From a virus: a stretch of 37,493 nt of DNA. The DNA lies in the IMG/VR virus record IMGVR_UViG_3300009169_000044, positions 1-37,493 of that record. One strand, given 5' to 3'. This document shows, piece by piece, positions 8,559 to 34,100 of this stretch. The position numbers and the translations under genes are program-made. Under the pieces are notes generated by a model. It did not search any database, had not been told where the DNA came from, and saw only the letters and a list, made by a program, of their open reading frames with translations. How positions within the stretch are numbered: the first letter of the stretch is position 1; every line of letters starts with the position of its first letter.

Positions 8559-8698
8559 CCAAAACACCAAAAGTCCTCTCAAATAATTTCTGACTTACTA
8601 AATAGGGCCGAATCCTGAACCCTGAATCCTGAATCCGGTGGTGCGATTGCAGTCCGCGAGAGGCATGCTTTTCTGCTAGATACATGTTAGATCTAATA

Positions 8699-9469: not shown

Positions 9470-9979
9470 ATGAAAACTAACAACACCTCCGTCACCTCCG
9501 CCGCTACCTCCGCCGCTACCATCCTTTGGACTTGCGTCGAGTCCTCGCATAACCTAGCTCTTGCCATTGCCACGCTTTGCCAGTCTTCCGGTGAGAAGTA
9601 TAAAGAAGCAGGTCAAGCTCTTGCTCTTGCTTGGTCGGAAATCAGCGGCGAAGTGAACGATTCACAAGCAACTAGGCACCTTGTCGAAGCGTGCTTTCAG
9701 ACGAGCATGGAAAGAAAGTCAGCTAGCAAGTTTCTAAATGGCGTCGGTCTCGTATCTAAGCAACGCATCGCCCAGCTTCTAAGCGTGGTTTATGATGGAG
9801 ATAAGACTAAAAACAATGGCAACAAATCCGAGAAGAGCGGTGAAGGGAAAAGTCAAGACGGTCTTGACAAGTCCGGTTTCACCTTCGAACAGATTCTTGC
9901 CGCGATCAAGTCCCTCCCATCTATCACGAAGGAGCAAGCCCAAATCGCCGCCGCTACCCTTGCAAGCAAGATTGCCTGA
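9470..9979 (+). CDS. Hypothetical protein, first gene of accessory block
   Basis: 169 residues, starting MKTNNTSVTSAATSAATILW. The N-terminal 100 residues are predicted helical (HNLALAIATLCQSSGEKYKE, RHLVEACFQTSMERKSASKF). A hydrophilic Lys/Gly/Ser linker (about 112-137) follows and then a short helical C-terminus (FEQILAAIKSLPS, IAAATLASKIA). The linker contains GKSQDGLDKSG, encoded by a copy of the palindrome that elsewhere follows stop codons, so the linker may have grown by insertion of that repeat. No family is recognised. The start lies after an A/C-rich leader without Shine-Dalgarno. Confidence 0.65.
   Translation: MKTNNTSVTSAATSAATILWTCVESSHNLALAIATLCQSSGEKYKEAGQALALAWSEISGEVNDSQATRHLVEACFQTSMERKSASKFLNGVGLVSKQRIAQLLSVVYDGDKTKNNGNKSEKSGEGKSQDGLDKSGFTFEQILAAIKSLPSITKEQAQIAAATLASKIA
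9851..9869. repeat. Palindrome copy 1, inside the first accessory gene
   Basis: AGTCAAGACGGTCTTGAC followed by A instead of T: a palindrome with one central base, matching the intergenic copies. It is the only copy inside a coding sequence and lies in the hydrophilic linker of the 169-residue protein. Confidence 0.85.
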
Positions 9980-9995
9980 ACCCTGCATCCTGCAT

Positions 9996-10032
9996 CCTGT
10001 ATCTGGCAAGTCCGACCCCTGCCGGATACAGG
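9996..10032 (+). terminator. Inverted repeat after the first accessory gene
   Basis: CCTGTATC-(T)-GGCA at 9996-10008 pairs with TGCC-(G)-GATACAGG ending at 10032, a stem of 8+4 bp with one mismatch. It is formed by two copies of the CCTGTATCC-type repeat in opposite orientation. It starts 17 nt past the stop codon. No U-run follows, so it is a transcript-end structure candidate only. Confidence 0.4.
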
Positions 10033-10057
10033 AATCAAACCTCTACCTAACTGAAAC

Positions 10058-10246
10058 ATGAAACAAGAATCCATTACTCAAGTCACCGCCGCCATTGCTT
10101 ACCTCATGGCGAAGAACCCATCCGCATTGCAGGCATTAGATAGCCCCATCCCCGTCATAGGGCGCGGCCTTTGCATCTGGCTTCCCGCCCGCCTTTCAAC
10201 CCTATCCTTTGACCTGCCAGCATTGTCGAAGAAAGCTCGTCTCTGA
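10058..10246 (+). CDS. Small hypothetical protein
   Basis: 62 residues: MKQESITQVTAAIAYLMAKN at the start, then a Leu/Pro-rich C-terminal half (GRGLCIWLPARLSTLSF, DLPALSKKARL). No function is recognised. Support comes from position (78 nt after the previous gene and just before a palindrome copy that begins 1 nt after its stop) and from the same order stop, palindrome, leader, ATG as its neighbours. Confidence 0.5.
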   Translation: MKQESITQVTAAIAYLMAKNPSALQALDSPIPVIGRGLCIWLPARLSTLSFDLPALSKKARL

Positions 10247-10247
10247 A

Positions 10248-10268
10248 AAGTCAAGACGGTCTTGACTT
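10248..10268. repeat. Palindrome copy 2 after a stop codon
   Basis: A perfect 21-bp palindrome with a central G: two 10-bp arms AAGTCAAGAC and GTCTTGACTT. It begins 1 nt past the TGA of the 62-residue gene. As RNA it would fold into an 8-9 bp stem with a tight loop. It is part of a longer composite repeat that recurs at 14156-14208. Confidence 0.9.
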
Positions 10269-10273
10269 TCCAA

Positions 10274-10289
10274 TGCGTAGCTTACCGCA
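10274..10289. repeat. TGCGTAGCTTACCGCA element, copy 1
   Basis: A 16-bp element with complementary ends (TGCG/CGCA) and inner TA/TA. It lies 33 nt upstream of the ATG of the next gene. Identical copies occur at 14182-14197 and 16646-16661, each also between a stop and the next start. Confidence 0.85.
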
Positions 10290-10321
10290 TAGTTGAAGCA
10301 CAAAACAAAATAAATAAACAT

Positions 10322-11815
10322 ATGAAAACACGTAAAGAATTGGAACAATTAATCGGCACGCAAGACTCTATTCCCACTAAGGTCTACGCTATTCTGCAAC
10401 AAGCTATCGGAGAGCATATCGAAGGCACTCTGAGGGCTGAGCAATTATTCCTGTATGATTCTTCAAGCGATAAGCTATCCCACTCGCTTGAGTGTCGTAA
10501 AAATAACGGCTCGGTTCTCAATTCCGTCTGCCATGAAGTCGTTACTCTAAAAGCTGGTTTGTTGTCCATCGAACTGACCATGCCACCAATTATGGAGGGG
10601 GGCAGGCCGCTTGAGCAAGCCGTAAACTCGTTGGGGGACCTTATGGCCTACGCCAACAATGCGAAGATCCGTTTGCCTTTCGACCCGCTAGACCCTAAAT
10701 CTGGCATCCAGTTTGTGTCACGGGATGACGTAACTGTCTATGCGGAGTATGGAAGAGCACGGTTTACCGACCCATCGAGAGTTGTGTCCTGCATCAATAA
10801 CTTCTTGAAGTATATGAACTTCCCCCCTATGCCGACGGTCAAGACAAACCCTATTCTTGCGGCCATTGAGTCGGCGCACAAGACGGCAGGATACAGTTGC
10901 GAGTGGCTGCATGAAGACGAGAACATCTCCGAGGTCTACAGTGGCGAAGACCCAGATGAGACTGGTTACACAAGTTGTATGTCAAGTAAACCACCGAGTT
11001 ACTTCGAGCTATACGATGATCTAGAACAAGATGGCAAGCTCACGCTTGTTCATCTGATCGACGGCGAGGGTATTAGGAAAGGCCGCGCACTGTGTTGGAT
11101 AGGAAATAATCCGAACGACTTCTATCTGGATAGGCTTTACATCCCTGAATATAACTCGGTGCAAGATCCTCTTGCACAAACTGCGTTCAAGGAGTTCTGT
11201 ATCTCCAACGGCATTACAAAAACCGTATTTGATAGAACGGCTGACGCATTAGGTCTTGAATTCAAGACCATCTCAATCCGGATGCCAAATTCAATATACA
11301 ATTATGGATATGCACCCTACGTTGACTCAATGTATCGTGTTTGTGATGACCAGAAGCTGCGGAATCATAGCGGCGGCGGGTACAGTACCGTTACGGAACT
11401 ACGTAGTACGGATGGATCGGTTGACGTTGAGCCAGAAGAGCCAGAAGGGATATACATCTGCCGTCACGGCGATACGTTTGATGAGGCAGAATGCGTAACA
11501 GTCCGAGACGGATCTTGGGAACTGGCACAAGATTGTGAGCTGCTAGAATCACACTACTACGGACGGGATACCTATGAGTTGGGGGGTGAGTGCGTCGAAA
11601 CTTACGACGGCCACTTTATCCTGCTGGAAGATTCAATCGAGTTACACGACGGCACCTATGCTCATGTAAATGAAGCGACACAACTCGACGCTGACACCGA
11701 CACCGAGCGCTATGCCCTTACCGAAAAATGCGAAAGGCTAAGCGATGGGCGGTGGGTGCTAGAAGTTGACAGGGAAAGACTCGAAGCAGAAATTGCCGCT
11801 GAAACCGAAGCCTGA
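10322..11815 (+). CDS. Phage protein with SCM/GRAxxW/DRxY motifs and C-terminal 14-residue repeats
   Basis: 497 residues from the ATG at 10322, which follows an A-rich leader; the frame is open slightly further upstream. The centre holds YTSCMSSKPPSYFELYDDL (S218-C219-M220), GRALCWIG (from residue 254) and LDRLYIPEY (D270-R271-x-Y273), a motif series I associate with an uncharacterised family of phage proteins. The C-terminus (about 385-497) consists of roughly seven tandem units of about 14 residues with the pattern aromatic, x, hydrophobic, x, x, acidic, Cys/Ser/Ala, ending in DG (for example TYELGGECVETYDG and RYALTEKCERLSDG). This looks like a small beta-repeat. The enzymatic role, if any, is unknown. 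A palindrome follows 3 nt past the stop. Confidence 0.75.
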   Translation: MKTRKELEQLIGTQDSIPTKVYAILQQAIGEHIEGTLRAEQLFLYDSSSDKLSHSLECRKNNGSVLNSVCHEVVTLKAGLLSIELTMPPIMEGGRPLEQAVNSLGDLMAYANNAKIRLPFDPLDPKSGIQFVSRDDVTVYAEYGRARFTDPSRVVSCINNFLKYMNFPPMPTVKTNPILAAIESAHKTAGYSCEWLHEDENISEVYSGEDPDETGYTSCMSSKPPSYFELYDDLEQDGKLTLVHLIDGEGIRKGRALCWIGNNPNDFYLDRLYIPEYNSVQDPLAQTAFKEFCISNGITKTVFDRTADALGLEFKTISIRMPNSIYNYGYAPYVDSMYRVCDDQKLRNHSGGGYSTVTELRSTDGSVDVEPEEPEGIYICRHGDTFDEAECVTVRDGSWELAQDCELLESHYYGRDTYELGGECVETYDGHFILLEDSIELHDGTYAHVNEATQLDADTDTERYALTEKCERLSDGRWVLEVDRERLEAEIAAETEA

Positions 11816-11818
11816 AAA

Positions 11819-11837
11819 AGTCAAGACCGTCTTGACT
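11819..11837. repeat. Palindrome copy 3 after a stop codon
   Basis: AGTCAAGACCGTCTTGACT: two perfect 9-bp arms around a central C. It begins 3 nt after the TGA of the 497-residue gene. It is followed by a TATAAT (11859-11864) just before the next ATG. Confidence 0.9.
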
Positions 11838-11867
11838 AAACCAATAACCGTTTAAGAATATAATAAT

Positions 11868-12926
11868 ATGAAAATCAATACACAACTACTACTTGCCACG
11901 TTCGCTATACAAAACCCCTCACGCAACCTCGCTTGCAATAACGAAGCGATGCGTGTGATTGAATCCCTTGCGCCGGATGACTGCATCGTTGTTAAGTCCA
12001 GCGGTAATATGATCATCCGCAAAGGGAATACATCTGGCACCCATCCAATGTATCTTGCCCACATGGATCAGGTGCATGACTATGCACCGTTCATGACATT
12101 ACATATCGATAATGATGTGCTGTCTGCATACGATGGCAATGGCAAGCAGTGCGGGACAGGCGGCGATGACAAGTGCGGCGTATACCTTGCACTTGAGATG
12201 CTGCATCGCTTACCCAACGTATCCTGTGTCTTTGTCCGCGACGAAGAAGTCGGGTGTTTGGGTTCCGGCATCGTGCCTATGGGTTGGTTTAACAATGCCG
12301 CGTTTGTCATCCAATCTGACCGCAACAATCGGACCTTCGACATCATCCGAGAAACCAACGGCATGAACTGCGCCAGTGATGGCTTTATGGATGCACTGCT
12401 TGCCCTTCCGGTAGCCTGTAAACATAACGAGGAGTCCGGTAGCGTTACTGATATCGGTGAGCTTGCCCGCCGCGACTTGCCTGTATCGTGTGTCAATATC
12501 TCATCCGGCTACCATAACCCGCATCAAGACACGGAAATTGTTCGCCTGTCCGAGCTAGCTATTGCTTGTGAGCTTGCCCTACAAGCGGGCTTGATCCACG
12601 GCGGCGTTGTGTGGGAACACACACCGACCAGCGCGTATGCAGCATACGCAACGGTCAGCCACTATAGCAGCTCTTACGGCAAACCCAGAACCGGAAGGGG
12701 GGCACTATACTGTGACTACCTCGATGACATCGACGATAAGTTCTACTCTGTCAATGAACTCGGTGATGTCAACCTCGGTAGCGTGTTTAAATCCACGCCT
12801 GAACGTGAACGTCTGATCACATTGCTGGAAGACTTTGGCTTTGACAGAACGTATGATATGCTAGAGAGCTTGGACACTGATGAACTAGAGGAGTGGGTTG
12901 GGTCCGAAGAGCTCTCCGTTATCTAA
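11868..12926 (+). CDS. M20/M28/M42-like zinc metallopeptidase
   Basis: 352 residues. All metal-binding positions of the di-zinc aminopeptidase/carboxypeptidase fold appear in order: H65 and D67 in YLAHMDQVHD, D100/D101 in GTGGDDKCGVYLALE (bridging Asp), E126-E127 in FVRDEEVGCLGSG (general base and ligand), D151 in VIQSDRNN, and H216 in SGYHNPHQDTE. The DGNGKQCGTGGDD stretch resembles peptidase T and related enzymes. These families remove N-terminal residues or cut small peptides; the phage substrate is unknown. The enzyme is cytoplasmic, with no signal peptide. The C-terminal 60 residues (ERLITLLEDFGFDRTYDML on) are acidic and extra. It lies in the block with a MoxR-type ATPase and a VWA protein, with palindromes on both sides. 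Confidence 0.8.
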   Translation: MKINTQLLLATFAIQNPSRNLACNNEAMRVIESLAPDDCIVVKSSGNMIIRKGNTSGTHPMYLAHMDQVHDYAPFMTLHIDNDVLSAYDGNGKQCGTGGDDKCGVYLALEMLHRLPNVSCVFVRDEEVGCLGSGIVPMGWFNNAAFVIQSDRNNRTFDIIRETNGMNCASDGFMDALLALPVACKHNEESGSVTDIGELARRDLPVSCVNISSGYHNPHQDTEIVRLSELAIACELALQAGLIHGGVVWEHTPTSAYAAYATVSHYSSSYGKPRTGRGALYCDYLDDIDDKFYSVNELGDVNLGSVFKSTPERERLITLLEDFGFDRTYDMLESLDTDELEEWVGSEELSVI

Positions 12927-12927
12927 A

Positions 12928-12946
12928 AGTAAAGACGGTCTTGACT
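12928..12946. repeat. Palindrome copy 4 after a stop codon, one mismatch
   Basis: AGTAAAGACGGTCTTGACT: one arm has A where the others have C, so the palindrome has one broken pair. It begins 2 nt past the TAA of the peptidase gene. A promoter-like sequence lies 33 nt further on. Confidence 0.85.
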
Positions 12947-12978
12947 AAACCAACATAAAAGTAATTGGAAATAAATTA

Positions 12979-13007
12979 TTGACAACAAAAGCAAACTGAA
13001 TTACAAA
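12979..13007 (+). promoter_or_regulatory. Candidate promoter for the ATPase gene
   Basis: TTGACA at 12979-12984, a 17-nt spacer and TACAAA at 13002-13007 match the sigma70 pattern well at -35 and at 4 of 6 positions at -10. It lies between palindrome copy 4 and the ATPase start (13063), so a new transcript could begin there. Sequence match only. Confidence 0.45.
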
Positions 13008-13062
13008 CCTTTCCGGCAGGGTTCTACCCCCTGCCAATACAACAAAACGAAACACGAATAAT

Positions 13063-14157
13063 ATGACAACGAACAACAACGCAATCAATCCAATCCGCCC
13101 ATCCGAACTGCTTCCCCTCGCTGAGGCCGCACTACTGGTGAACCGCTTCCTCATGATCGTCGGCTCTGGCGGTGCGGGCAAGACCTCGATGGTCTGCAAT
13201 GTATTAGGTCCAGCAATGGGCCGTGAGGTGTGGGACGTTAACCTTAACGGCCAAGGACCGCAAGAGACGGTCGGCTATCTGGTTCCTGACTCCGCCACAA
13301 GGGACGCATGGTTCTCTGCACCGGAGATCTGGCCGACCCTTGATCGAGTTGGTGACAAACCTATCCTCCTGTTCTTGGATGAGGTCAACGACTATGACCC
13401 ACAAGTTCGGGCTTTGCTCCGCTCCCTGTACCCTGCATCCGGTAACCGGAAGGTGGGTTCCCATACCCTCGGCACTAACGTCTTTGTAGTGTGTGCCACT
13501 AACCGCAGACAGGACGGCACTCGCTCCGCTGTGGAGGATGCCCCGTTCACTGAACGCTGTATCAAGGTGACGCTAGATCCCAACGTAGCCGACTGGCTTG
13601 ACTGGTATGACGGACAGCAAGAATTAGTGGCGAGTGGTTCACATGTTCCGGCATTCCTCCGCTTCGGCACGACAGGAGGTGACGGGTTGGATCACTTCAA
13701 CCCACCTGTCGTCATGCCATACGATGGTGCCCCGCATCCTTGTCCTCGGACATGGGAAGCAGTCGCCTTGCTTGAGCCCATCCGTAAATCAGCACAAGAC
13801 ATCTACCGCAAGGCGGTGAAGGGTAGCATCGGAGATCGTGCAGCCAGTGCGTTCTTCGGGTTCCTGCAACACGTTGACAAGCTGCCAGACATCGCCGCGC
13901 TTCGCAGCAATCCTGACGGGTTCACCGTGCCAAATGATCCGGCCTCACAGTTCGCTCTTGTCTCCGCTTGCCTGAGTCAGGCGACGAGAGGCGTGAAGGA
14001 CATCCCGATTGCGGTGCACAGTGGCGGGTTTGACTGGCTCGTTACCCTACTACTTAAATGCAGGGGAGACATCCGTGAGTTCGGTGCCCGCTCCGCTGAA
14101 CGTAGGGGCATCCCGCTTAGCGAACATCCAAAGTCCCATGCCTTGATCCTCGGATAA
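13063..14157 (+). CDS. MoxR-type AAA+ ATPase
   Basis: 364 residues. Walker A is GSGGAGKTS (34-42), Walker B is ILLFLDEVND with D106-E107, sensor 1 is N147 in VVCATNRRQ, and an Arg-rich region follows (DAPFTERCIKVTL), giving a likely arginine finger. The layout with an alpha helix plus LNGQGPQETVGYLVP after Walker A is like MoxR/AAA_5 ATPases, which act as hexameric remodelling machines with VWA-domain partners. The C-terminal 180 residues include a helical lid domain. The next genes encode a partner-like protein and a metallopeptidase-motif/VWA protein, which supports the MoxR assignment. The substrate is unknown. Confidence 0.8.
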   Translation: MTTNNNAINPIRPSELLPLAEAALLVNRFLMIVGSGGAGKTSMVCNVLGPAMGREVWDVNLNGQGPQETVGYLVPDSATRDAWFSAPEIWPTLDRVGDKPILLFLDEVNDYDPQVRALLRSLYPASGNRKVGSHTLGTNVFVVCATNRRQDGTRSAVEDAPFTERCIKVTLDPNVADWLDWYDGQQELVASGSHVPAFLRFGTTGGDGLDHFNPPVVMPYDGAPHPCPRTWEAVALLEPIRKSAQDIYRKAVKGSIGDRAASAFFGFLQHVDKLPDIAALRSNPDGFTVPNDPASQFALVSACLSQATRGVKDIPIAVHSGGFDWLVTLLLKCRGDIREFGARSAERRGIPLSEHPKSHALILG

Positions 14158-14176
14158 GTCAAGACCGTCTTGACTT
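14156..14176. repeat. Palindrome copy 5, overlapping the stop codon
   Basis: AAGTCAAGAC-C-GTCTTGACTT, 21 bp and perfectly symmetrical around a central C. It starts inside the TAA of the ATPase gene. Followed by TTCCA and the TGCGTAGC element, it repeats the composite arrangement seen at 10248-10289. Confidence 0.9.
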
Positions 14177-14181
14177 TCCAC

Positions 14182-14197
14182 TGCGTAGCTTACCGCA
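14182..14197. repeat. TGCGTAGCTTACCGCA element, copy 2
   Basis: Identical to the copy at 10274-10289, and at nearly the same distance (5 to 6 nt) from its palindrome. It lies 47 nt upstream of the next ATG (14244). Confidence 0.85.
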
Positions 14198-14243
14198 TAG
14201 TTGCAGCGTTCATTAACAATAAAACAAAATAGATAGTAACATT

Positions 14244-15125
14244 ATGACAACAAACAACACACCGTTAAACCTGAAGGTCGCTCAATCCCTTGTGCTCTGC
14301 CACTATGCGACGACAGCACCTGCAACCACCGCACTCAACCGCTCCGCTTCGGCCCGTGCAATCACATCAGCCGGAGCGGAGAAGGATGCGGCTCGCCTTT
14401 ACAATACCATCCTTGCCGCTAAGGGCACGGCGGTAGGTAAGGCGATCAGCTTGCAGCAGCGGACAGGTGTCGCGGTTCGCCGCTTCGGTATGCTCTGCCA
14501 GACTGGCGGGTTCTACCTCCGTGTGAAGGACGTAGGTGAAGTGCAGAACGTGTTCGATGATGCGATGGTGGAGCTGGATACAATCCGCGAGGACATCCTT
14601 GCTACGTATCCTGACCTGCTTAACATCATCAGAGGAAGACTTGCTGGATTTGCTAGCGAAGTTATTATCCCCACTGCAACGGAGGTGGCGAGCAAGTTCA
14701 CGATGCGCTTGTCCATCATCAATCGTCCGGTGTCCGTCAACGAAGCGGTGCTCACTGGCTTAACCGAGGAGGTAGCTAATCGGGTAAGAGCCGACAGCCA
14801 ACGCCAGATCGAGGATGATTTCCGTGCATCCCATGCGGGACCTGTTCGTGACCTGAAGAAAGTGATCGAGGACTTCACCGATGCGATGCGTAACGCCGAC
14901 CGCTTGCACCTGACGCAGTTCGATAAGCTGCGTGACGAAGCAAAGCGTGTGAAGAATCTAAACTTCCTTGACCTGCCGGAGATCGATGAGGTAGTAAGAC
15001 TCGCCGCCGATGCAGCGGCATCACCAATCGGGATACCGACAAAGGATGAGCGGGTAGTCATCGCCGCGAAAGCAGACAAGGCAATCAGCAAAGCAGACGA
15101 GACGCTCGCAGCCCTCGGCCTGTAA
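14244..15125 (+). CDS. Hypothetical helical protein, partner of ATPase/VWA genes (DUF3150-like?)
   Basis: 293 residues, mostly charged helices (DVGEVQNVFDDAMVELDTIR, RQIEDDFRASHAGPVRDLK, FTDAMRNADRLHLTQFDKL), no membrane segments and no catalytic motif. It sits between the MoxR-type ATPase and the metallopeptidase/VWA gene. A helical protein of unknown function in that spot resembles the DUF3150 family that I know from phage and bacterial ATPase/VWA clusters, but I cannot confirm membership by eye. It would be an adaptor or scaffold for the ATPase-VWA pair. The order and spacing support one operon. Confidence 0.65.
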   Translation: MTTNNTPLNLKVAQSLVLCHYATTAPATTALNRSASARAITSAGAEKDAARLYNTILAAKGTAVGKAISLQQRTGVAVRRFGMLCQTGGFYLRVKDVGEVQNVFDDAMVELDTIREDILATYPDLLNIIRGRLAGFASEVIIPTATEVASKFTMRLSIINRPVSVNEAVLTGLTEEVANRVRADSQRQIEDDFRASHAGPVRDLKKVIEDFTDAMRNADRLHLTQFDKLRDEAKRVKNLNFLDLPEIDEVVRLAADAAASPIGIPTKDERVVIAAKADKAISKADETLAALGL

Positions 15126-15190
15126 CCTACAGCGGGAGGTCCGACCCCTCCCCCCTCCCACCCAACCCAACCTAACCTAAATAAAAATAT

Positions 15191-16636
15191 ATGAAATCAA
15201 ATACAATAGATCCAACATCGTTTGACACAGACCACCCGCTTGCCGCTGCCATGCGTAGCGTCAGCCGCTACTGGTTCCTCTCATACAGTAAGCTCATGTC
15301 AATGGAATGGGAGTGGTCAACCGCTATCCCATACGGGGCAACGGATGGTCGCCGCCTGCTACTCAACAAGGAGGGCATCGCTAAGCTTTGCCGCCAACCC
15401 AATGCGTCGGGGCTCATCGCCTTCTTGCTAGTGCATGAGGCACTGCACGCCCTATTGGGTCACGGCTGGAGACTGAATAAGCTGAAGGACTCCACGCTTG
15501 CCAACATCGCAGCGGACTACGTCATCAATGCGATGATCGCAATGCGTAACCGTGAGCTCAAGCGGGAGGTGTTCCCCTTCATCGAAGGTGTGCTACTCGA
15601 CGAAGCCCTGTCCGGTGACAAGTCCGCTGAGCAACTCTACCGTGAGTTGACTAAGCCGCAACCCCCTGCCCCGCAGCCTGAGATTAACCCCAACCCAGAG
15701 CCCCAACCCCAAGACAGTAATGACCAACAGGACAACGATGAAAGTGACAGCGACGGAGACGCCCCATGCGACGGGGATAATGACGACGATTCGGATACAG
15801 ACAGAGGACCAACTCCTTCCGACAGTGCTGACGGTGGTGACGGAGATGCCGATCCCGACGGCGGAGCTGACGGACCTGATCAAGACGGCGGTGATTCGGA
15901 CGATGATGACCTATCCGACTTCGTAGGTACTGGCTCGCCAGACAACATCGAACCGGAAGCAGAGGATGGTGAGACACAAGCCGAAGCAATCGACAAGATT
16001 GAGGAGGACAACGACCGTATCCTAATAGCTGACGAGATCGATAGGAGACAACAAGCGAGCGGCGGATCTACCGGACAGCGTGTCGGTAGCCAGCGCAGCT
16101 ACGGCTCGACGTTAGGTTGGCCGGACCTACTGCGTGAGTGGCTCACCAATCGTTCACGCTGCGGATGGGATGCACCGTTCAATGCTCCGGTCTATTCCAC
16201 AACAGGAGTAGTGGGTGCAGGCAGACGCAACAAGAAGGCAGGCGAGATTGTACTAGTGCTTGATACCTCCGGCTCAATCGGACAGCGCACGTATGACCGC
16301 TTCCTGCAAGAGGCACAGTGCATCCTCGACGAGCTTAAGCCGGAGCGCCTGCACCTACTGTCTGTGTCCCATGTCGTAGCCGATGTCGTCTCACTTGAGA
16401 CAGGTGACACAGTGCCCGCCGAGCTGAAGGGTGGGGGTGGCACAGCGTTCAAGCCCGCCTTCGACTGGGTGCGCGACAACGTGGACGATATGGATGTCAT
16501 GGTATACCTGACTGACGGGTGGTCCTACGATCTAGCATCACTACCACAAGTGGAGTTCCCCCTGCTTTGGTTGACCACTCAGCGTTCCGTTGCTGACTTC
16601 AAGGTGGGCACTGCCCTCGCCATCTCCGAACTGTAA
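15191..16636 (+). CDS. Metallopeptidase-motif and VWA-domain protein
   Basis: 481 residues. The N-terminal domain has a zincin-like motif, LLVHEALHALLGH (H82, E83, H86, H91), followed by NIAADYVIN, as in DUF2201-type putative metallopeptidases. An Asp-rich, calcium-binding-like acidic linker spans about residues 175-245. The C-terminal VWA domain begins near EIVLVLDTSGSIG: MIDAS D358-T359-S360-G361-S362, T418 in GGGGTAFKPAF and D442 in MVYLTDGW, so all metal-contacting positions are kept. VWA proteins of this type are normally paired with MoxR ATPases, here two genes upstream. The peptidase activity is a motif-based inference. Confidence 0.8.
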   Translation: MKSNTIDPTSFDTDHPLAAAMRSVSRYWFLSYSKLMSMEWEWSTAIPYGATDGRRLLLNKEGIAKLCRQPNASGLIAFLLVHEALHALLGHGWRLNKLKDSTLANIAADYVINAMIAMRNRELKREVFPFIEGVLLDEALSGDKSAEQLYRELTKPQPPAPQPEINPNPEPQPQDSNDQQDNDESDSDGDAPCDGDNDDDSDTDRGPTPSDSADGGDGDADPDGGADGPDQDGGDSDDDDLSDFVGTGSPDNIEPEAEDGETQAEAIDKIEEDNDRILIADEIDRRQQASGGSTGQRVGSQRSYGSTLGWPDLLREWLTNRSRCGWDAPFNAPVYSTTGVVGAGRRNKKAGEIVLVLDTSGSIGQRTYDRFLQEAQCILDELKPERLHLLSVSHVVADVVSLETGDTVPAELKGGGGTAFKPAFDWVRDNVDDMDVMVYLTDGWSYDLASLPQVEFPLLWLTTQRSVADFKVGTALAISEL

Positions 16637-18129: not shown

Positions 18130-18219
18130 TTCCTGATTGTATTTATTATGGGCCCGCTCCCTATCTTGATTATCCTATGGCATCAAGTGTCAGATGTCAT
18201 TCGTCATAAGGGCCGTTGA
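18112..18219 (+). CDS. Possible 35-aa membrane protein
   Basis: MMTLLSFLIVFIMGPLPILI and then ILWHQVSDVIRHKGR: a single hydrophobic helix (about residues 4-23) with a basic C-terminus, ending TGA at 18219. It has a good Shine-Dalgarno (AAAGGAGAG), although this sits in the hairpin described above. It overlaps the 3' end of the convergent giant gene by 23 nt. It could be a real small membrane protein or a chance frame created by the hairpin; length alone does not decide. Confidence 0.4.
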   Translation: MMTLLSFLIVFIMGPLPILIILWHQVSDVIRHKGR

Positions 18220-21200
18220 CATAATACATAGACCCCTTGCGGTTGACTGATCTATTAATGCTTTGGATCTTCTGCATCGGGTCTTGCTCCTTAGCCTGCT
18301 GGGCATTGAAGTAAGTCTTTTGATTCCACTTATCGTTCGGTCTCCAAGCAATCCTGTATCCTTGATACGCCGACCCGATAGTGTCATCACTGAACTTATA
18401 GATCTTAGCCGACGCATACACCGACGACTCCTCGGAACCCATCGATACCATTGAACGCATGAAGCGATTCATCCTTCGTTGGGTTTCGTTGAGTCCGTCT
18501 TGGTGGCGATCAACAACCTCATCAATCTCTTTGTCTGTCTTGAACCTACCGCTTGTAAGTTCACCAATAGTAGAAACCGAATCGTCAAGTAGTCCTTTAA
18601 GATTACGGAACCCTCTACGCTCAATCTCCCCGAAGGTATTAGTCTTAGGGCGGGAGCCTAGGATTTCACCCCAGATAAGTTCTTCCGCATTCGTCTGGCC
18701 TTTACGTGTGATGTCAATGCCTTTTGCTAAGCCGGATGGGATCACAACACCCTTACCAAAGTGACCGAGAACCCGCATCATTACTGTATAGGAGTTATCG
18801 GTCTCCAGATAGATCGGTTGCCCTCTATCATTCTCATTATTTAAGATCTCGTCTACCGAAGTAGCGGCGATCTGAGTGCCAATCAAATCGTTGACAACAT
18901 AACTAGCGAGACGCGAACCATTGATTCCTTCTCCGGTTTTGAATCCTTCAGTGATGATACTGACAGCGTCCGTCAACTGGCTGTGCGGCAGGACATAGCT
19001 CATGTCAATCATCTGGACCTTGCCGCCCTTAAGAACTTGCGCCCTAATCTGATGTCCTCTTTGCCATTTAGGTAGCGACTCACGCAGTGCAGCCAACTCA
19101 ACCACTGTGAGTTCCCGCTCTTCTTCTTCCCCTCCGGTAAGAGCACGGAAGAAAGTTGTCATCAGTGTGCCAACAATAACGGGGGCCGCAGTAATGGTAG
19201 CCGTAAATCCTGCAAGCCGTTGTATCCCACGCCGTGCCATGACCCCGCCTTGTTTGATCTCCTCAAGAGCAAGCGGAACTGTGTTAAGCATAGTGCGGAA
19301 CACTTCCGATTTCCATCGTGCAAACGGAAGGAAGACCGCAGCCATTGGAGTCTTATTGAAAGACTTAACAATGTCGATTACTTGCGAGTGGCCTGCAAAG
19401 GTGAGCTTCACCTTGCGTGCCGCTGCTTCCTCCTGTGCCTCGACAGACATGGCATTACCGAAATGCTTTTGGATTATACCAAGTTCATAATAGTAAGCGT
19501 TGGCTTTGAACATCCCGTCGATAGCGCCATCGAGGGCCGCTAAGAAATCCGTCACCTTTGCGTAGCCGGAGTATGCCTTAGCCAGACCTCCAGTTATATA
19601 GCCCTCTGCTTTGAGTCGAGCAACAACGCCACCTGCATCCTTTGTGATGCGGGCCTCATCGACAGCCGTCATCAAAGCTTGGAGATCCTGCTCCGGTGTG
19701 GCAATCAAACCCCTAAGTAGATCTTGTGCAGCCCGCCCTTGGGACTGATCGTTAAGGACATTAAGCTGCACCAATCGAAGGATTGAATTGCGTTGGTCTT
19801 CCTCTGTGCCGAGGGCTGAGAACGCTCCGCTCCACGATTGTTTGATGGACTGCGAACCCTTAGCCGAGAACGGGTTCATTAGGATACCTTGAGCTGCGCT
19901 TAAGATGTAACCGCCGATGACGTTCCGTGGCCAGTAGCCGAGGCCGAGTTGGGTTTTCATTTGGATGGCAGCACCGCTCACACCCATGATTGTTCTACCC
20001 ACACTATTCATTATGCCTGTAGAGTTTGACTCTAAGCCTTTCATGTTTATGCCGAACATCTCATTGATAACTCCGGCAACCTTAGGGTCGAAGTAAAGAC
20101 CAGCAAGATCGCCTGTTGTCTTCGATGAACTTGCGGCGAATGATGTAATCCATCCCGCCTTTGCGTCCTTACTTGCAAGGCCTAGGTCAAGGGCAGTCTT
20201 TGCAAAGTCGGCTCTAAACTTATCGTTTGCGGACAACATCCCTACACGGAAAGCCGTGTTGACTGCATTGGCAAGGGGGTCTTCGATCTCACCTAAGAGT
20301 TCTCGGAATGTAGAATCAATATCCTTCTTCGGCTTAAACCGATTAAGGTCTTTGCGAATAGAGTCAATAGTCTGGCGGTCAACAGCAGACGTCATTGTCT
20401 CAAGGCTAGACAGATAGTTGTCTAGCTTTTTAAGGGTAAGTTCATCAACATCCCTCGACGTATACGGTTTACCGATCTTCTGGAACTCAGCTTCAGACTC
20501 TTCGTAGTATGCTGATGCTGCATTCATCCTAAGTTTATTGAAGTCAACGTCGTTGCCTTCGATCTTAATGATGCCGCCCATCTTTGCAGCCGCCGCCCAT
20601 CCTTCTGTATTGAAGAACTTGTATGCCCGTGTAAGGTAGACATCATTGGACTCATCGAATCCAATGCTACCCTTAAACTTATTGATATCCTTACGGAATA
20701 GAACGGCGCGGTCAACAAGTTCGTTGAACCCTGCATCCTTAATGTTCTGCTCTGCCGCTGCTTGCCTCTTGACAAACGCTTCGTTGAACCGAAGACGGCG
20801 CTCCCGCTTCAGCTTCTCACTGTGTTCAGCAACAAGATCAGCCTTGCGTCCTTCAGTTTCCGTGTCTGGGATAGTTGTTTCATAGGCAATTGACAAGTCC
20901 AGTATCTCTCTAAGATCTGCATCGGTAAGCGGAGGTGCCGTTGTTCCGAACAAGATCTTGATGTCTCCCATATCGACGCCACCCTTGAGTGCGTTGTCGC
21001 GAAGCTTAGGGAAATACTTAACCAAAGATTTAGATGCGGCGGTAATTTGATTCACCGTTCCACTACGCAGGTTAATAATATCCCGCAGCTGAGACGGCAG
21101 ATTATACAAACGCAGTCGCTCATTCATCGTATCCACCTTACCCTCATTGGAGGACATAACGGGGATTGCATAGGATACTTGATCATCAACAGGCGAGCCA

Positions 21201-24200
21201 TCGAGAGAGGCAAAGAAGTTTGCCGTGTCACCGAAGCGACCCTCTGCATAGAGGTCGGCGTTAAAGTCAATCGACTTACTCTTGTTGATCTTACGCAACG
21301 CACGCGCCGCAAAGGAGATGGATGCTGCCGTTTCGGTGGATGGGTATTCCACAAACCGTTGGCGTAGGCGAGTAACGAATGCTTTGATCGCATCAATTAC
21401 CGTGGAGAGTAGCGTACTATTTCCTTTGGTGGCCTTGATGATGTCCTCATATGTGCGACCGTTAGCGGCCTTCTCAACCTGCATCCTGATCCATTCATCG
21501 GCAATGCGTGAGTCAGACAGGATACCGGATTCCCGATCCGTCGCCACTGAGGTGCGGATCTCTTCGGCAGTAAGTCCAGATGTAGCATAGTATTCCTCCG
21601 CTACTTTTTGCAGTTGGTCTTCACTCAACTCAGAAGCAACGCGTTCAATTTGAGCAGGCGTGAATTCATTGAGTGCAGCAAAGTGTGCGACCTCATGGTT
21701 TACTAGACCTTTGATTCTTGCTTTAGCTGCGCTCTCGCTCAAGCCGTCAATAGCCGCTTGGAGATATGCTTCGTTGAAACGCATCACCGTCGGTTCACTA
21801 CGAGGGATGCCAGCAATACCTTTTATGTTTGCATCCATACGGAGACTAAATCCTTTTGGTAGTTGCCCCATAAGAATCTGTTCGTTGCTTAGCAGTGCTT
21901 CAGTTGGGGCTTTCGAAAGAAGCACATTAGAATTACTACGGAGTTGACCCTTAACCTTAGCAAACTCACGCAGGGCGCTCAGCCCTTCTTCGATCTTGTG
22001 TGAATCGAGTCGGAGGTTCCGTTCGGATTTAATGTTGAACGTGTTTGCTCCGGCGAACATCTGCGTGAAGTCGAGTAGCTCATCGAATGCGGATGCCATC
22101 TTCTTGTCAACAGCACCATAACCGAACAGCGCACGTAGCGACTCCCAGATGCGACTGAGTAGCGAGCGTTGTGCCGTCGGCGTTGCAGCCCTAATGAGTG
22201 ACTGGAACTCCGGCGCGGTAAGCGCGTGGGTGATGAACTCAAGATCGTCCGTAAGTGCTGTGGTAAACCCTTCAGTATCGAAGCCCATCTTCTCTGCCTG
22301 CACGGCAGTAAGATTGCGGAGTGACGCGATGCGCTGCACTGCTGCGATCTGCGCGGGCGTTTTCGGATTAGTCATCGTCTGGATTGTGACGGCGTGCAAG
22401 TATTCATGCAGCAAGACATCAACAACACCGCGACCGTTGTGGCCGGAGATGTTAATCACGACCAGATTGGACTTCGGCATGAACGCGCCAGCAAAGCGGA
22501 CATCGTTCATATCACCAATCGTAAACCGGACATTGCGGATAAGATCTACATTGGCCGTAAGCACGCCTGCAACCAACCGTTGCATCAAGGTGCCGGATTC
22601 TTGGATGTCACGCAGCGCAGCGATAACGGATGCCGGATCGTTACTGACAATGCCTAGACGTTTGATCTCCGCGTTGTTTACTTTGCGTGCTGTGGTGGCA
22701 AGCATGTCACCATCGGCTTCACTTAGGTAAACACCAACGGATTCTCTTGCCAGTTTTTTGGCATTAGACAAACGCGCCTTCTTGTCAACCTGTGTAGCTT
22801 TTTCCGGTAGTGGCTCAAGCTGTGTTGGGATAGCTCTCGTTCCCTTAGGTGTGAGTATCTCACCCTCAACAGGAGGTAGCCACCCCATATCAATAAGAGC
22901 ATTGGCAAGATCGAGCCCTTCAGGGGATGACTTAAGATCGCGTGCAAGCTTTACGCCCGCTTCCTTTTGGTAGTTGTTTAGTGCGTGACCTGCAAGATCA
23001 ATAAGTTCTACCTCATCCATATCCTCATTGAGGTTTGGTACAGATTTACTTACGATCTTGAATAGACTGTCGTACGCTTTGGCGTTTGTCCGTAGTGTCT
23101 CAGCCAGTTGATTAAGTGTAGAGGTATCCAATAGGCGGATAGCGGACTCGACCACATCGGAATTAGGATCGACCAGCGAGTTCATCACACCGTCATAATC
23201 TTCTTGTGAGACGGCACTGTTGCCGCGCACTTTGCTGTTGCGCCGGATCTCTGAGACTTGATATCGTTTAGCGGAATCACGTACTTGGGTTCTAAAAGGT
23301 TTAACCCCTATGCTCATAGCACCTGAAGTAACACTGTTATAAAGGTACGTTCCGTAATTAGTGAGTTCCCCTTCGGGAGACTGAGCGGTTTTACCGTAGA
23401 TCTTCTTAAGTGCGTCAGCAACATCTTTAATCGGCGGCGTTACTTGACCCTTGGACGTTGCCTCTTCAAGAATAATTTTAGGGATATTGATGTCGAACAG
23501 CGTAGCCGATGGGTTAAGTTGCTGTGCTTTAATGAGGCTGTTTTCAATTCTCTTTCCGAGCCCATATTCTTTTAGGCTATTGGCGTAAGCAACTTGTGCC
23601 ACACTCATAGCTTCCCGTCCTTTGTCTTCGCTAAGACCAAAAGAACTTGTGATTAGTCTTTCAAAGCTACCAAAAATACTTTTCCTAGTTTCTACACCTG
23701 CTGGTGTCGCAACATTTTGAGACTGGGATGCTGACATCATGTCATTCATGTATGTCTCAAAGGTATTGTTGGCTTTGTTTCTGGCCGAAGGGCCTGCGCC
23801 ATCTAGGAATTGTGGTGCTGGTTCGCGTAGTAGGTTACCCAAACTGGTCATCGCCTTCTTCGGGGTATATCCACTCTTGCCAACAAGGGAAACATCTCCG
23901 GCATTGCTTACTCCGGTATCATTTGGGTGCCTCCGTACATTGATAACCTCCAGCCCACCATTACCTGTAGGTCTGGTGTCAATTGACTTGTTAAGGGAGA
24001 AGCCTTTACTTGAGACAATAGATTTAGGGATAATGATTCTAAGCCCCTTGTCAATCTGCTGCATGGTAACGAGGGGGTTATTAGTAAACACACCTGCAAT
24101 AGGGGTCTTGTTGGTGTCCAAGACGACAGGGATATCAATATAACTACTGCCCGCCTTATCCATATTTGGAACTGGAACATTAGACTTTAATGTAGCTGTT

Positions 24201-27200
24201 CCTTCAGGCACAGGAATCAACGGGAAGTTTTCTGTGACAGCTTTGGATAGGCGTTGCTTGATCTCAGTGCTGTGTGCTTGGAACGGGATGCCGCTCACTG
24301 CTCTAGGGTCGTATCCATGCTCAGCAAAGTTACTAATCATGAAACCACCAGCAGTCCATTCGGTAAAGAGCTGAGCTTCAGTTGTATTTCGGAACAGTCC
24401 GCTTTTATACACAGCAAGCGGGGGTTGCTTACTTACATACGCAACAGGACCAACGCCTGCCTTCTCTTTAAACTTAGATTTTGCTACTGCTACTGCCGCT
24501 GCTTTCGCTGCTACGTCAGGCGACGGGCTCACCCTACCCTCCATAATATCAAGAAGATCGTCGGCGTTCCTTTGCTGATCCGTACGGACATCAACATCAG
24601 GGTCAGGACTACTAAGTTCTTTGATTTGGTTTTCGATTACGGAAGACTTATTGCCAACAAGAACGCGGGCTTGGTTGACACTATCGCGGAGACGCTTCAA
24701 AGAATCAAGGACGCTTGATGGCACTGCCCTTCCGGTTTCCTTAGCAGATGATATACGACCGTCCAGTTGTATCAGTTCAACTTCAAGAGATTCCAAAGTA
24801 GTAGAGCGGCCATCAGCATCGAAGACTGGAACGGTAGTCGCAAGTTCCGATAGTTCCTCTTGCAGTTTGGCAGCTGCCTCCGTTGGGTTCTCCTCGTTGT
24901 CTACAACAATAGCTGAGGGGAGAGGGGTAACCGGAACCTTCTTTCCTTTAGCTGGTTTCTTAGCTGCTGGTGTAGGAGCAGTAGGTTCTGTAATAAGAGG
25001 TAGCTCTTCGGAGATAACTTCAGGAGCAATAGCGGGTCCCTTAGCCGGTGTGAACTGAGCGACCCGAACGCGATCATAGATCGCTTGCATAGAGTTGAGG
25101 GAACTAAAGATTTCTTGTCGGGTTCCGCCGAGGACATCGTCAAGGTCGGAAGCAAATTTGTTTGCTGTATCAATACGGGTTTGTAGATCTGCGAAATATT
25201 CAGGAGCAAATGATTCAGCTACATTATTAATTGCTTCGGCAGAATAGCCTTGACGTGAAACATCAAGCAGGGCTAGGGCCAAGGGACTCTCCTTGATAAG
25301 CCCACTCACGAACGTACCCTCTTCCGTTTGTGGTTTTACCGGAGGCGCGATTCCCGTTTGCTCAGCATCGGCTAGGACAACTTCAGCGGGCGTAGCGGCT
25401 ACGTCCATCGGCTTGTCAGCGTCAACGCTAACTGGAATCACGGTATCTTTCTTGCCCTTCTTACCCTTAACGACAATAGGAGTCGGAGGTAAGATGACTG
25501 CGGTTGGATCTGCTACAGGAGTAGTAGTGGGTTCAACGACGGGTGGCTCATCGAATAAGCCGAGTTCAAGTTGTTGGATATTCTCAGGCTTGCTGACTTC
25601 CGCAAACTCAAGATTATAATAGCGCAAAGCATCTTCAATCTGACCTTTGTCGGTAAGGATAATATCGCTGAGGATATTCTCTTGCCCAATAAGACGTGCA
25701 TTCTTAATGCGAAGAACCGGAGCATCTGCCATATCTTGAGCGAGAGATACGTTCTCCGCTTCAGTTGGTAATGCAAACTGTTGTTTGTTCTTTGGGTTTG
25801 GTGCGACATAAGGAGTTCCTGCGGGGATAGATCCTCTATGCTCTCCGGTAGTCATCAACCGCTTACGGTCAAGTCGAACGCCAGACTTATCAATCGGTTG
25901 AAACTTATTGCCTACAACAAGATGGGTAACGCCGTCAGCTCTAGGCTCATCGAGATTTAGGTGTACTGCATCGCCCACGCGCTCAAGAGTTCCGCCATAA
26001 GAACCAACATAGGCACGCTCGCCCTCAAAGTCTGTGAGGAACCGAGTCGTCTCAGGCAACACCATCGAACGTGTATCTCCGATTGGCAACTCAGCTTGTC
26101 CCGTAGGCTCAAAGCTAATTGGTTTGTCTACATTTGTGACAACTTCTTCGAACTTAACTCGCTCTTCTTTTTGTTGCTGTGCTGCAATCTCAAGCTGCTT
26201 CTGTTCATTAGCTGCTGCTTGTGCGTCGTTAAGCTGACGTTGCAGAACTTCGGCAGTGGCGCTGCTTCCGGTCTTACGCAAATCGTTGGCTACCTTAGTA
26301 AGCACTGAAGCGCGTGCGTCGAGAGCGAGTGATATCTCAGATTGCTGAAGAGGTGATGCAAGCTGGGAAACAGAAGGAACGGCACCACCCAAGATTCCGC
26401 CCAAAGTAAAGGCGGTAAAGATTTGATTCACACGCTCGGAAAGCGGAGTGTTCTTATCCAGTGCGGCATCTTCAATGCGTCCTTGGATTGCAGTGTCGAG
26501 AGCTTCTTCAAAGCCCTCACCAATACCACCCTTAAGCACTGTGCTAAAATAGTTTTTATACTCACCACCAATGTGGCTACGAAGAACTTTTTTGAATGCT
26601 CCGTCGCTAAGTTTAGCTCCGGCATTTTCCAGATTTTCGTAAAGGAACTTGGCTTGTTTGTAGTTAAGCTCGCTAAGCGGAACCTTACGCACGTTAGTGG
26701 CCGTCTCGTCGGCAAGGGTAGCGGGGCGGAACTTACCAGTTGCAAGATCTTCAACACCACCTTTACCTAAGAAGCTCATGCCAGAGGTAATGACGGCAGT
26801 GCTTAGTCCAGCCGCAATACTATAACCAAAAGCATTCTGATGTTTCTCATCATGGCTCATGGTATCTGGCAGCTGCCCATAGATAGAACCATAAGTCGAA
26901 CTGGCAGACCGTGTGAACGTAGTGGCAAATAGGGGGACGAGTTGCTCAGCGCGTGATAGTTTGACAGCAAGATTATCACCGACATCTTTGAGCGCGTTAC
27001 TAACGAGAGACTCGCCGCCAGCCTTTGCCGCATCCTTAACCAATACGGCAGTCGTATCGTCAACCATAGACACGGCACCACGCAAAGCTTCGCGAGTAAC
27101 TGCTTTTACGCCACCACGAACAACACCTTTGGCTGCGGTATATGCACCTGTGGTTCCAATAGTAGCTAGGATGTCGGTTGCAACTTGGGGGATAGTATTG

Positions 27201-32288: not shown

Positions 32289-34100
32289 TTAATCGTAAAT
32301 CATCTGTGAATGTTTAGACCTACTCACGACATCAAGGTCGCGTAGGGTGCGTGGTTGTCGCGCACCAAACAAGCCGTGCTCCGTTTTCTTAGGGGCATCA
32401 ACAGCAACCAATCCATGCCTCTGCCTTGCGAGATCAAGCGCGATAAATGCGGCGTCGGCAATGTCCGGTGACTGGCCTGACCTTTGTTTTAGTTCCGCCT
32501 TCGATTCGACTTTTACTTTTAGTGTGCCGGATTTCACCATGTCGTATCTGCGTGAGCACATTTCCTTTGCCAGCTCCGAATTAATTCCGCAAATCTGCTG
32601 AGTCCGCATAAACTCCTTACCCACAAACCAAAGTTCCGACACACGGTTGGTATACAGTTCTTCGCCAGTAAGCTGGCTGTTCATACTCACACGCCGATCC
32701 GAGGGTTTGCCGCCGAACTGCACACGCAAGAACTGGTCTGACCACTCGCCAGCCAATACGTCGCAGAAAGGTGAGCCAGCTCCCGTCGAGTCAATCGCTA
32801 CATTTTCCGGTTTAATACCCAACTTTAAACAGTGGTCTCGGATTTGGTGCACGATCTGGTATGTACGCGGAACTGCCTTATTAGTCGTGTCGTCATTTAG
32901 TGTAAAATAATTCTCAAACTTTAACCCGTATTGCCCATTAGCAAAAGAGCCAACCCTTGCAGTATACATCACTGTTCTGTCCCCCCCATTTGTGAAGGCC
33001 GGATCGACTCCTGCAATCAGAGTTGTAGATCCATTGAATTCCCACGCCTTAGTTGCACCCGACTTAATCATCTCAGCCTCGCCGTAGATACCCTCGTTCT
33101 CGTCTGAGTCGAAGAACACGGCACGAACCATTCGGTAATAGGCCCTGCTCGTCTCACCCAAGAGTGCTTTATCCTCCTCAATCTTTTCTATTGTAGGCAA
33201 GAACGGGTAAAGCGTCTGCCCCGCTAATATGTTGGGGCTGCGCTCACCATCGAGTCGGATATACTTACCACCCCATTTTGTAACCCACTCGTCGTCTACT
33301 TCGGGCGTAACTGAATCCCAACCATTTTCGGGTGTTGACCAGTCACCGAATGCGTCGAAGCGACTTGAAGGGTTACTTGCGCCTTTAAATTCGAAGCGCG
33401 GGTTTTTACTCAAGTTGGCGAGCGCGGCCTGTTTAATGGCGGGGCTAAGCTCACCCAACTCGTCACCAATTAGAATTACATGTTTTTGCTTAAGACCAAT
33501 AAACTTACCAATAGCCTCGCGTGTCCTGCTTTTTTCTGCTGCGATCAGAGACAGCCCTGCGCGGTCAAAGGTCTGCCCGTTCTCATCAACGTAGTTGGCG
33601 GAACCAATCGAGTCTCGAATATTAATTGGTGCCCCATCGATCACAGAGAGCAAAGAGATTACGGAACCCCACACCCGCTTACGTGCTTCTCGCAAAGTGG
33701 TTGAGGTCATCAGCACAAGGGTATCCCTCGGCGCGGCAAGCCAACTAATGATCCCGTATCCAGCAAGGGTGTGGGACTTACCGGAAGATGCAGCACCGCC
33801 GATAGCAAGATACTTGTTGTTGATACACTCATAGATGATCTTATCCGCCCAAGGGTGGCGTAAGAACATGTGCTCTGGCAAATCATCTCTGTTCCATAGT
33901 AGATCCGCAACTCGCCAGAAGTAGAACTCACGCGCTTTGGGTGATGAGTGGTTGGCAAAACCCCAGAGCAAAGCTGTAAGCGTGCTCGTGATCGGGATAA
34001 GGTAACCACCAACATCCATTTTCTTACTTACGGGATCAATCCTCGGCTCCAATACTGACGTAGTTACTTTGTTTGGATTTTGTTTTTTAGCTCGGCCCAT
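32289..34100 (-). CDS. terL: Terminase large subunit
   Basis: 603 residues. ATPase domain: Walker A GGAASSGKSH (about 101-110), Walker B VILIGDELGE with D213-E214, and coupling motif KGASNPSSRFD (about 239-249). Nuclease domain (RNase H-like): D366 in LIAGVDPAFTNGGDR, D437 in VAIDSTGAG, and D546/D549 in SPDIADAAFIALD. These acidic residues would coordinate the metal for cutting packaged DNA. Full length, no frameshift. It packs DNA through the portal. Unusually, the small-terminase-like gene lies divergently upstream rather than directly before it on the same strand. Confidence 0.93.
   Translation of the reverse strand: MGRAKKQNPNKVTTSVLEPRIDPVSKKMDVGGYLIPITSTLTALLWGFANHSSPKAREFYFWRVADLLWNRDDLPEHMFLRHPWADKIIYECINNKYLAIGGAASSGKSHTLAGYGIISWLAAPRDTLVLMTSTTLREARKRVWGSVISLLSVIDGAPINIRDSIGSANYVDENGQTFDRAGLSLIAAEKSRTREAIGKFIGLKQKHVILIGDELGELSPAIKQAALANLSKNPRFEFKGASNPSSRFDAFGDWSTPENGWDSVTPEVDDEWVTKWGGKYIRLDGERSPNILAGQTLYPFLPTIEKIEEDKALLGETSRAYYRMVRAVFFDSDENEGIYGEAEMIKSGATKAWEFNGSTTLIAGVDPAFTNGGDRTVMYTARVGSFANGQYGLKFENYFTLNDDTTNKAVPRTYQIVHQIRDHCLKLGIKPENVAIDSTGAGSPFCDVLAGEWSDQFLRVQFGGKPSDRRVSMNSQLTGEELYTNRVSELWFVGKEFMRTQQICGINSELAKEMCSRRYDMVKSGTLKVKVESKAELKQRSGQSPDIADAAFIALDLARQRHGLVAVDAPKKTEHGLFGARQPRTLRDLDVVSRSKHSQMIYD

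Follow-up and report, generated by a model that had tools for sequence, protein, structure and literature searches.

A conserved three-gene cassette of a MoxR-type ATPase, a DUF3150-like helical protein and a zincin-VWA protein in phages and conjugative plasmids

Four consecutive plus-strand genes at positions 11868 to 16636 of the IMG/VR virus record IMGVR_UViG_3300009169_000044 (the window: the whole record, 37,493 bases) raise the question of which of them belong together. The initial annotation had combined a zinc peptidase, an AAA+ ATPase, a helical protein and a protein with both an HExxH motif and a VWA domain into one protein-remodelling or peptide-scavenging system. All four open reading frames (ORFs) that it described are present. 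We find that the conserved unit is three genes, not four: a MoxR-type AAA+ ATPase, a DUF3150-like helical protein and a DUF2201 zincin-VWA protein. The peptidase is an independent, exchangeable passenger, and we judge it to lie outside the cassette. The features of the three-gene unit are as follows.

13063 to 14157, plus strand: component 1, MoxR/NorQ/midasin-type AAA+ ATPase, 364 amino acids (phrog_1297, PDB profile matches, motifs).
13162 to 13185, plus strand: Walker A, GSGGAGKT, residues 34-41 (K40 invariant in a 24-sequence alignment).
13366 to 13383, plus strand: Walker B, LLFLDE, residues 102-107 (D106 invariant and E107 at least 90% conserved in 24 sequences).
13501 to 13503, plus strand: sensor-1 Asn147 (invariant in 24 homologues).
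13747 to 13749, plus strand: putative sensor-2 Arg229 in a PRTW ("PRxW") motif (invariant in 24 homologues).
14244 to 15125, plus strand: component 2, DUF3150-like helical protein, 293 amino acids (PF11348 sub-threshold, family-level matches, structure model).
15191 to 16636, plus strand: component 3, DUF2201 protein of 481 amino acids with a zincin-like domain, an acidic linker and a VWA domain (Pfam and model).
15434 to 15463, plus strand: HExxHxxxxH motif, residues 82-91 (H82, H86 and H91 invariant in 25 sequences).
15680 to 15901, plus strand: Asp/Glu-rich linker, predicted disordered, residues 164-237 (predicted local distance difference test score, pLDDT, below 50; sequence).
16262 to 16276, plus strand: metal ion-dependent adhesion site (MIDAS) DxSxS, residues 358-362, completed by T418 and D442 (invariant in 25 sequences).

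All 16 relatives that span the trio, from a set of 17 IMG/VR relatives, encode it in the order ATPase, helical protein, VWA protein; in one relative (L020) the helical ORF is broken. Seven more distant contigs contain all three genes; six keep this arrangement, and in L109 the helical gene leads. Over the IMG/VR contigs that reach all three genes, the trio is thus found together in 23 and in this order in 22, and the different arrangement in L109 means that the linkage is not solely inherited gene order. The trio genes are under strong purifying selection (dN/dS 0.05-0.30), which rules out chance ORFs. A freshwater cyanophage record (Pag-Yong1/MinM2), from a Planktothrix/Synechococcus phage, also has a MoxR ATPase, a DUF3150 protein and a VWA-like protein in one cluster.

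The same association is found in bacteria. A genome scan with the VWA protein alone as query returned 42 bacterial loci, of which 40 contain all three genes and two the ATPase and VWA genes only. Among plasmid records with the helical protein, 41 of 42 also carry the VWA protein, while 13 further plasmid VWA records, mostly distant, have no detectable helical gene (two of these were seen as ATPase and VWA pairs). PRTRC protein B is encoded on 34 of the 42 plasmids carrying the helical protein, and VirB4 lies within 6 kb in 23 of the 42 genome loci. On pBMC401, pBB2 and Robbsia p3 the trio comes after the PRTRC cluster, and on pBMC401 and Robbsia p3 it is upstream of the VirB11-B2-B3-B4 conjugation genes. 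A protein of about 500 amino acids precedes the cassette in 33 of the 42 bacterial loci. Synechocystis pSYSA (L089) and a Sphaerotilus plasmid (L090) have a two-gene form, a MoxR ATPase and a VWA-like protein, beside DUF262 genes; the pSYSA pair is also near toxin-antitoxin-like genes.

The ATPase matches phrog_1297 (E = 2.9e-43) and, more weakly, the CobS-like phrog_249. An alignment of 24 diverse homologues shows G37, G39, K40, D106, N147, R165 and R229 to be invariant, in agreement with the Walker A, Walker B and sensor-1 asparagine first annotated. From their positions, R165 would be the arginine finger and R229 sensor 2, a role that we take from general knowledge of the MoxR family. The single window sequence gives only sub-threshold matches to the Pfam AAA families (AAA_5/AAA_3), and its homologues match AAA_5 in 10 of 24 and AAA_3 in 4 of 24 cases at E values up to 0.001. 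We nonetheless place the protein in the MoxR/NorQ/midasin group, since its profile finds midasin (5e-45), NorQ (8e-8) and CbbQ (9e-7) among solved structures.

The zincin-VWA protein has Pfam matches above the cut-offs for both PF09967 (1.7e-16; 60.9 against 26.4 bits) and PF13203 (2.4e-9; 37.6 against 23.2 bits), and both domains (DUF2201_N and DUF2201) are present in one protein in 25 of 25 homologues. In the AlphaFold model, a confidently predicted N-terminal domain is followed by a disordered acidic linker and a VWA domain (fold match 3gxb, probability 1.00), with which the protein ends according to both Pfam and the model. The two motif sets, H82-E83-x2-H86-x4-H91 and D358-x-S360-x-S362 with T418 and D442, had been noted as HExxHx4H plus a complete MIDAS, and the alignment of 25 phage and bacterial homologues bears this out: no sequence deviates at H82, H86, H91, D358, S360, S362, T418 or D442, and conservation of E83 is at least 90%. 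A weak CobT-like match is also among the profile hits. Placement of the ATPase/VWA pair in the MoxR/VWA world thus stood (midasin, NorQ and CbbQ for the one, DUF2201 and DUF2201_N above cut-off for the other), except that the AAA Pfam matches stayed below threshold. PHROG 1314 and GenBank records such as NC_019514 gp036 and NC_023719 gp576 label this DUF2201 zincin-VWA family "HNH endonuclease", which, judging from the Pfam results, is probably wrong.

The helical protein, which had been described without a function, is a real third component, co-occurring with the ATPase and VWA genes in phages, bacteria and plasmids. Its model is mostly alpha-helical (pLDDT 80.6). PF11348 (DUF3150) is matched by 18 of 30 family members (best 1e-4), more than match any other family, and database homologues carry a DUF3150 annotation, all of which is consistent with a relative of DUF3150. 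Phage and plasmid versions are homologous, with hidden Markov model (HMM) E values of 6e-10 to 3e-13 and an hhalign probability of 98.4. A tblastn search against named phages gave no direct homologue, the Planktothrix phage homologue being detected by HMM only, and a fold search in PDB gave nothing at E < 0.001. The phage G protein gp569 was rejected as a helical homologue (E = 0.26).

Upstream of the trio lie the peptidase and a second gene.

11868 to 12926, plus strand: M42/M28-like zinc peptidase, outside the cassette (Pfam, PHROG, ligand alignment).
10322 to 11815, plus strand: companion of the peptidase, a protein without a family match, outside the cassette (co-occurrence with the peptidase).

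The peptidase matches PF05343 just above the cut-off (23.4 against 23.2 bits) and phrog_4191 clearly (E = 2e-43). Its metal site of the M20/M28/M42 type (H65/D67, D100-D101, E126-E127, D151, H219) is present and aligned in five relatives, as first read from the sequence; H219 is invariant and H216 is replaced by tyrosine in one of the five. Its membership in a module with the other three genes did not hold. A search with the helical protein yielded 11 contigs that reach far enough upstream to be informative; three contain the peptidase and eight have the trio without it, as do all more distant contigs within the fetched DNA. In L003 and L004 the slot upstream of the ATPase is occupied instead by a 437-442-amino-acid protein and a GATase/GGACT protein (PF06094, E 1e-24), and in L002 by a Gp88-like gene (PF17338). 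The exchangeable slot corresponds to window positions 9500-13063 and its equivalent in L002-L006. Conversely, Drulisvirus phages have relatives of the peptidase with no trio nearby. Where the peptidase is present, the homologue of the 10322-11815 gene is alongside it in five of five relatives; the product of that gene has no family match in Pfam/PHROG-type searches, no phage match and no homology with the upstream protein of about 510 amino acids on plasmids. When one pair of genomes is compared, the peptidase has diverged further than the trio, and its synonymous sites are saturated. On its co-occurrence across relatives we therefore reject the peptidase as a fourth component, and peptide scavenging acting on the host, as had been suggested, is left without direct support.

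Transcription of the trio probably begins at a start of its own, because most of 15 relatives, whether they carry the peptidase or not, retain a promoter-like block that was identified by consensus match.

12979 to 13011, plus strand: promoter-like TTGACA-N17-TACAAA within the conserved TTGAC...ACTGAATTACA, immediately ahead of the ATPase gene.

Repeats at the gene junctions had been taken as shared cis elements. They are real and non-random, and they are also unspecific, flanking unrelated genes as well and missing at these junctions in many relatives. Five near-perfect palindromes AGTCAAGACnGTCTTGACT are located at window positions 9851, 10249, 11819, 12928 and 14157 (expected, 0.01), four at gene ends and one inside the ORF at 9470-9979. 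The palindrome also occurs in close relatives, with seven copies in L002, and is a candidate operator, processing site or terminator. A second junction element, TGCGTAGCTTACCGCAT, is present in three copies at 10274, 14182 and 16646 (expected, 0.07) and is also found between genes of several relatives. Being unspecific to the four genes, the palindromes were ruled out as proof of their co-regulation. Short iterated CCTGnAn-type repeats were further observed at 8607, 9975 and 13425, one copy lying within the ATPase coding region.

The window is probably a fragment of a tailed phage, to judge from a terminase, an Erf-like gene and a 3504-amino-acid protein encoded in it.

32289 to 34100, on the strand opposite to the trio block: terminase (phrog_2).

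The 3504-amino-acid protein (18197-28711, minus strand) has two HExxH motifs (HEYLH, HEVAH) and no Pfam match or convincing PDB match; its relatives adjoin the trio in most related contigs. Although the ATPase and VWA genes are Schitoviridae-like, we do not assume an N4-like identity for the phage, because this protein matches neither the N4 virion RNA polymerase nor, convincingly, any solved structure.

What the trio does can be approached from its better known relatives. In NorQ/NorD, a ring ATPase engages a VWA partner whose MIDAS metal presumably binds an acidic residue of the target, and ATP hydrolysis strains the partner's linker (PMC9976466, PMC13036017). By this model, we consider it likely that the trio encodes a MoxR/VWA-type machine that remodels proteins at the expense of ATP and, in phages and plasmids alike, acts on an intracellular target. 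The ATPase would assemble into a ring on which the VWA protein docks as an adaptor, its MIDAS metal gripping an acidic residue of the target. ATP hydrolysis, passed on through the flexible acidic linker, would strain or unfold the target, and at the linker's opposite end the zincin-like domain could clip the presented protein or hold a metal for it. The DUF3150-like protein may be a dedicated scaffold or target adaptor, replacing the helical N-terminal part of ViaA- or NorD-type partners. The target would be an intracellular protein relevant to phage and plasmid alike, such as a host factor or a replication, partition or defence protein; this is likelier than a virion protein because plasmids, which make no virions, keep the trio. 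A narrower version is speculative and on the unlikely side: ring ATPase, DUF3150 scaffold and zincin-VWA adaptor-protease would form a three-part ATP-fed protease or remodelling machine, found as one cassette in conjugative plasmids and in unrelated phages, and would clip or disarm a host protein that both face.

Several points weigh against a machine of this kind. A few bacterial loci and the N4-like phages do without the helical gene, which therefore cannot be a general requirement, and the window's helical protein itself falls below the PF11348 cut-off (15.5 against 24.9 bits, E = 0.011). The monomer model of the VWA domain shows no long insertion comparable to the NorD "finger", and the mode of docking may therefore be another. 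That the zincin-like domain acts as a protease is a prediction, physical interaction of the three proteins is suggested by gene linkage, and the plasmid argument against a virion role presumes the same target in both, when the targets could differ.

It is possible, if rather doubtful, that the trio is instead a virion-assembly or maturation chaperone, with the ATPase and the metallopeptidase-VWA protein folding, inserting or processing structural proteins. Such a role has been proposed, in the available passages of PMC7824862, for group 2.2 jumbo phages, which have the same two-protein design, a MoxR AAA+ ATPase plus a vWA protein that carries a metallopeptidase domain at its N-terminus; those passages describe a different lineage, no third helical component and no plasmid occurrence. 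In Acidianus two-tailed virus (ATV), the MoxR ATPase and VWA partner p618/p892 act in virion tail development (PMC4124505), but ATV is an archaeal virus, p618 is a virion protein, and these proteins lack a metallopeptidase domain (per the same passages of PMC7824862) and have no described DUF3150 partner. In the window lineage the trio block is flanked on both sides by blocks on the other strand, among whose genes are those of the terminase and the giant protein. Against a structural role, the trio also resides on plasmids and genomic elements, which form no virions, and the N4-like pair, an ATPase and a VWA protein, is just past RNA polymerase genes or ahead of replication genes, away from structural genes.

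Defence or counter-defence, in which the machine would remodel or clip a host immunity protein or protect the element against competitors, is unlikely. It would suit the distribution on phages and conjugative plasmids and the surroundings of the two-gene form on pSYSA and the Sphaerotilus plasmid described above. PADLOC, however, gave no convincing match, only weak AAA-domain hits. The MoxR-vWA ternary conflict systems (VMAP, iSTAND; PMC7159879) likewise combine an ATPase, a vWA protein and a third protein, but here the third protein has no VMAP or STAND match, effector-type domains are lacking, with none past the VWA domain, and the genes are not variable, being core in phages.

Metal chelation or cofactor insertion, as by CobS/CobT, BchI/BchD or NorQ/NorD, would have the trio load metal into a phage or host enzyme, and we regard this as quite improbable. 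The ATPase clade and the VWA-MIDAS protein with acidic linker are the same, NorQ is among the solved relatives, and there are the weak CobT-like and CobS-like matches. No CobN/BchH-like large subunit or tetrapyrrole gene was recognised near the trio in the window, annotated plasmids or phages, and the enzymes served would need to be common to phages and plasmids. NorQ/NorD, CbbQ/CbbO and RavA/ViaA share with the trio a ring-type ATPase of this clade, a VWA-MIDAS partner and a disordered linker; the trio differs in its zincin-like N-terminus, its separate helical protein, the absence of their known targets and the lack of an obvious VWA finger. Finally, we hold it very unlikely that all four genes form one system and that the zinc peptidase joins the ATPase/VWA machine in breaking down host proteins or scavenging peptides: adjacent same-strand genes with shared junction palindromes and an upstream peptidase in five related phages speak for it, and the replacement, divergence, companion gene and trio-free occurrence of the peptidase against it.

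Returning to the remodelling machine, its two-protein form is already known in jumbo phages and N4 (PMC7824862 and PMC2784036, from the passages available). The N4 gp24/gp25 genes of Schitoviridae (PMC2784036) encode a homologous ATPase (phrog_1297) and DUF2201 protein (phrog_1314), adjacent in Erwinia phage S6; unlike the trio they are two genes only, with no DUF3150-like gene detected between them. Midasin (Rea1/Mdn1), the best match of the ATPase profile, also grips substrates by a MIDAS domain (available text of PMC8837202), but is a single giant eukaryotic protein for ribosome assembly. In the searchable literature, whose coverage excludes most subscription papers, we found no description of the three-gene form and no paper mentioning DUF3150.

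The cassette ties the unexplained gene pair of N4-like and jumbo phages to a cassette on large conjugative plasmids and adds a conserved third component to it. A well-conserved machine is thereby set apart from an unrelated neighbouring peptidase, and phages and plasmids offer two independent genetic systems in which to seek its target.

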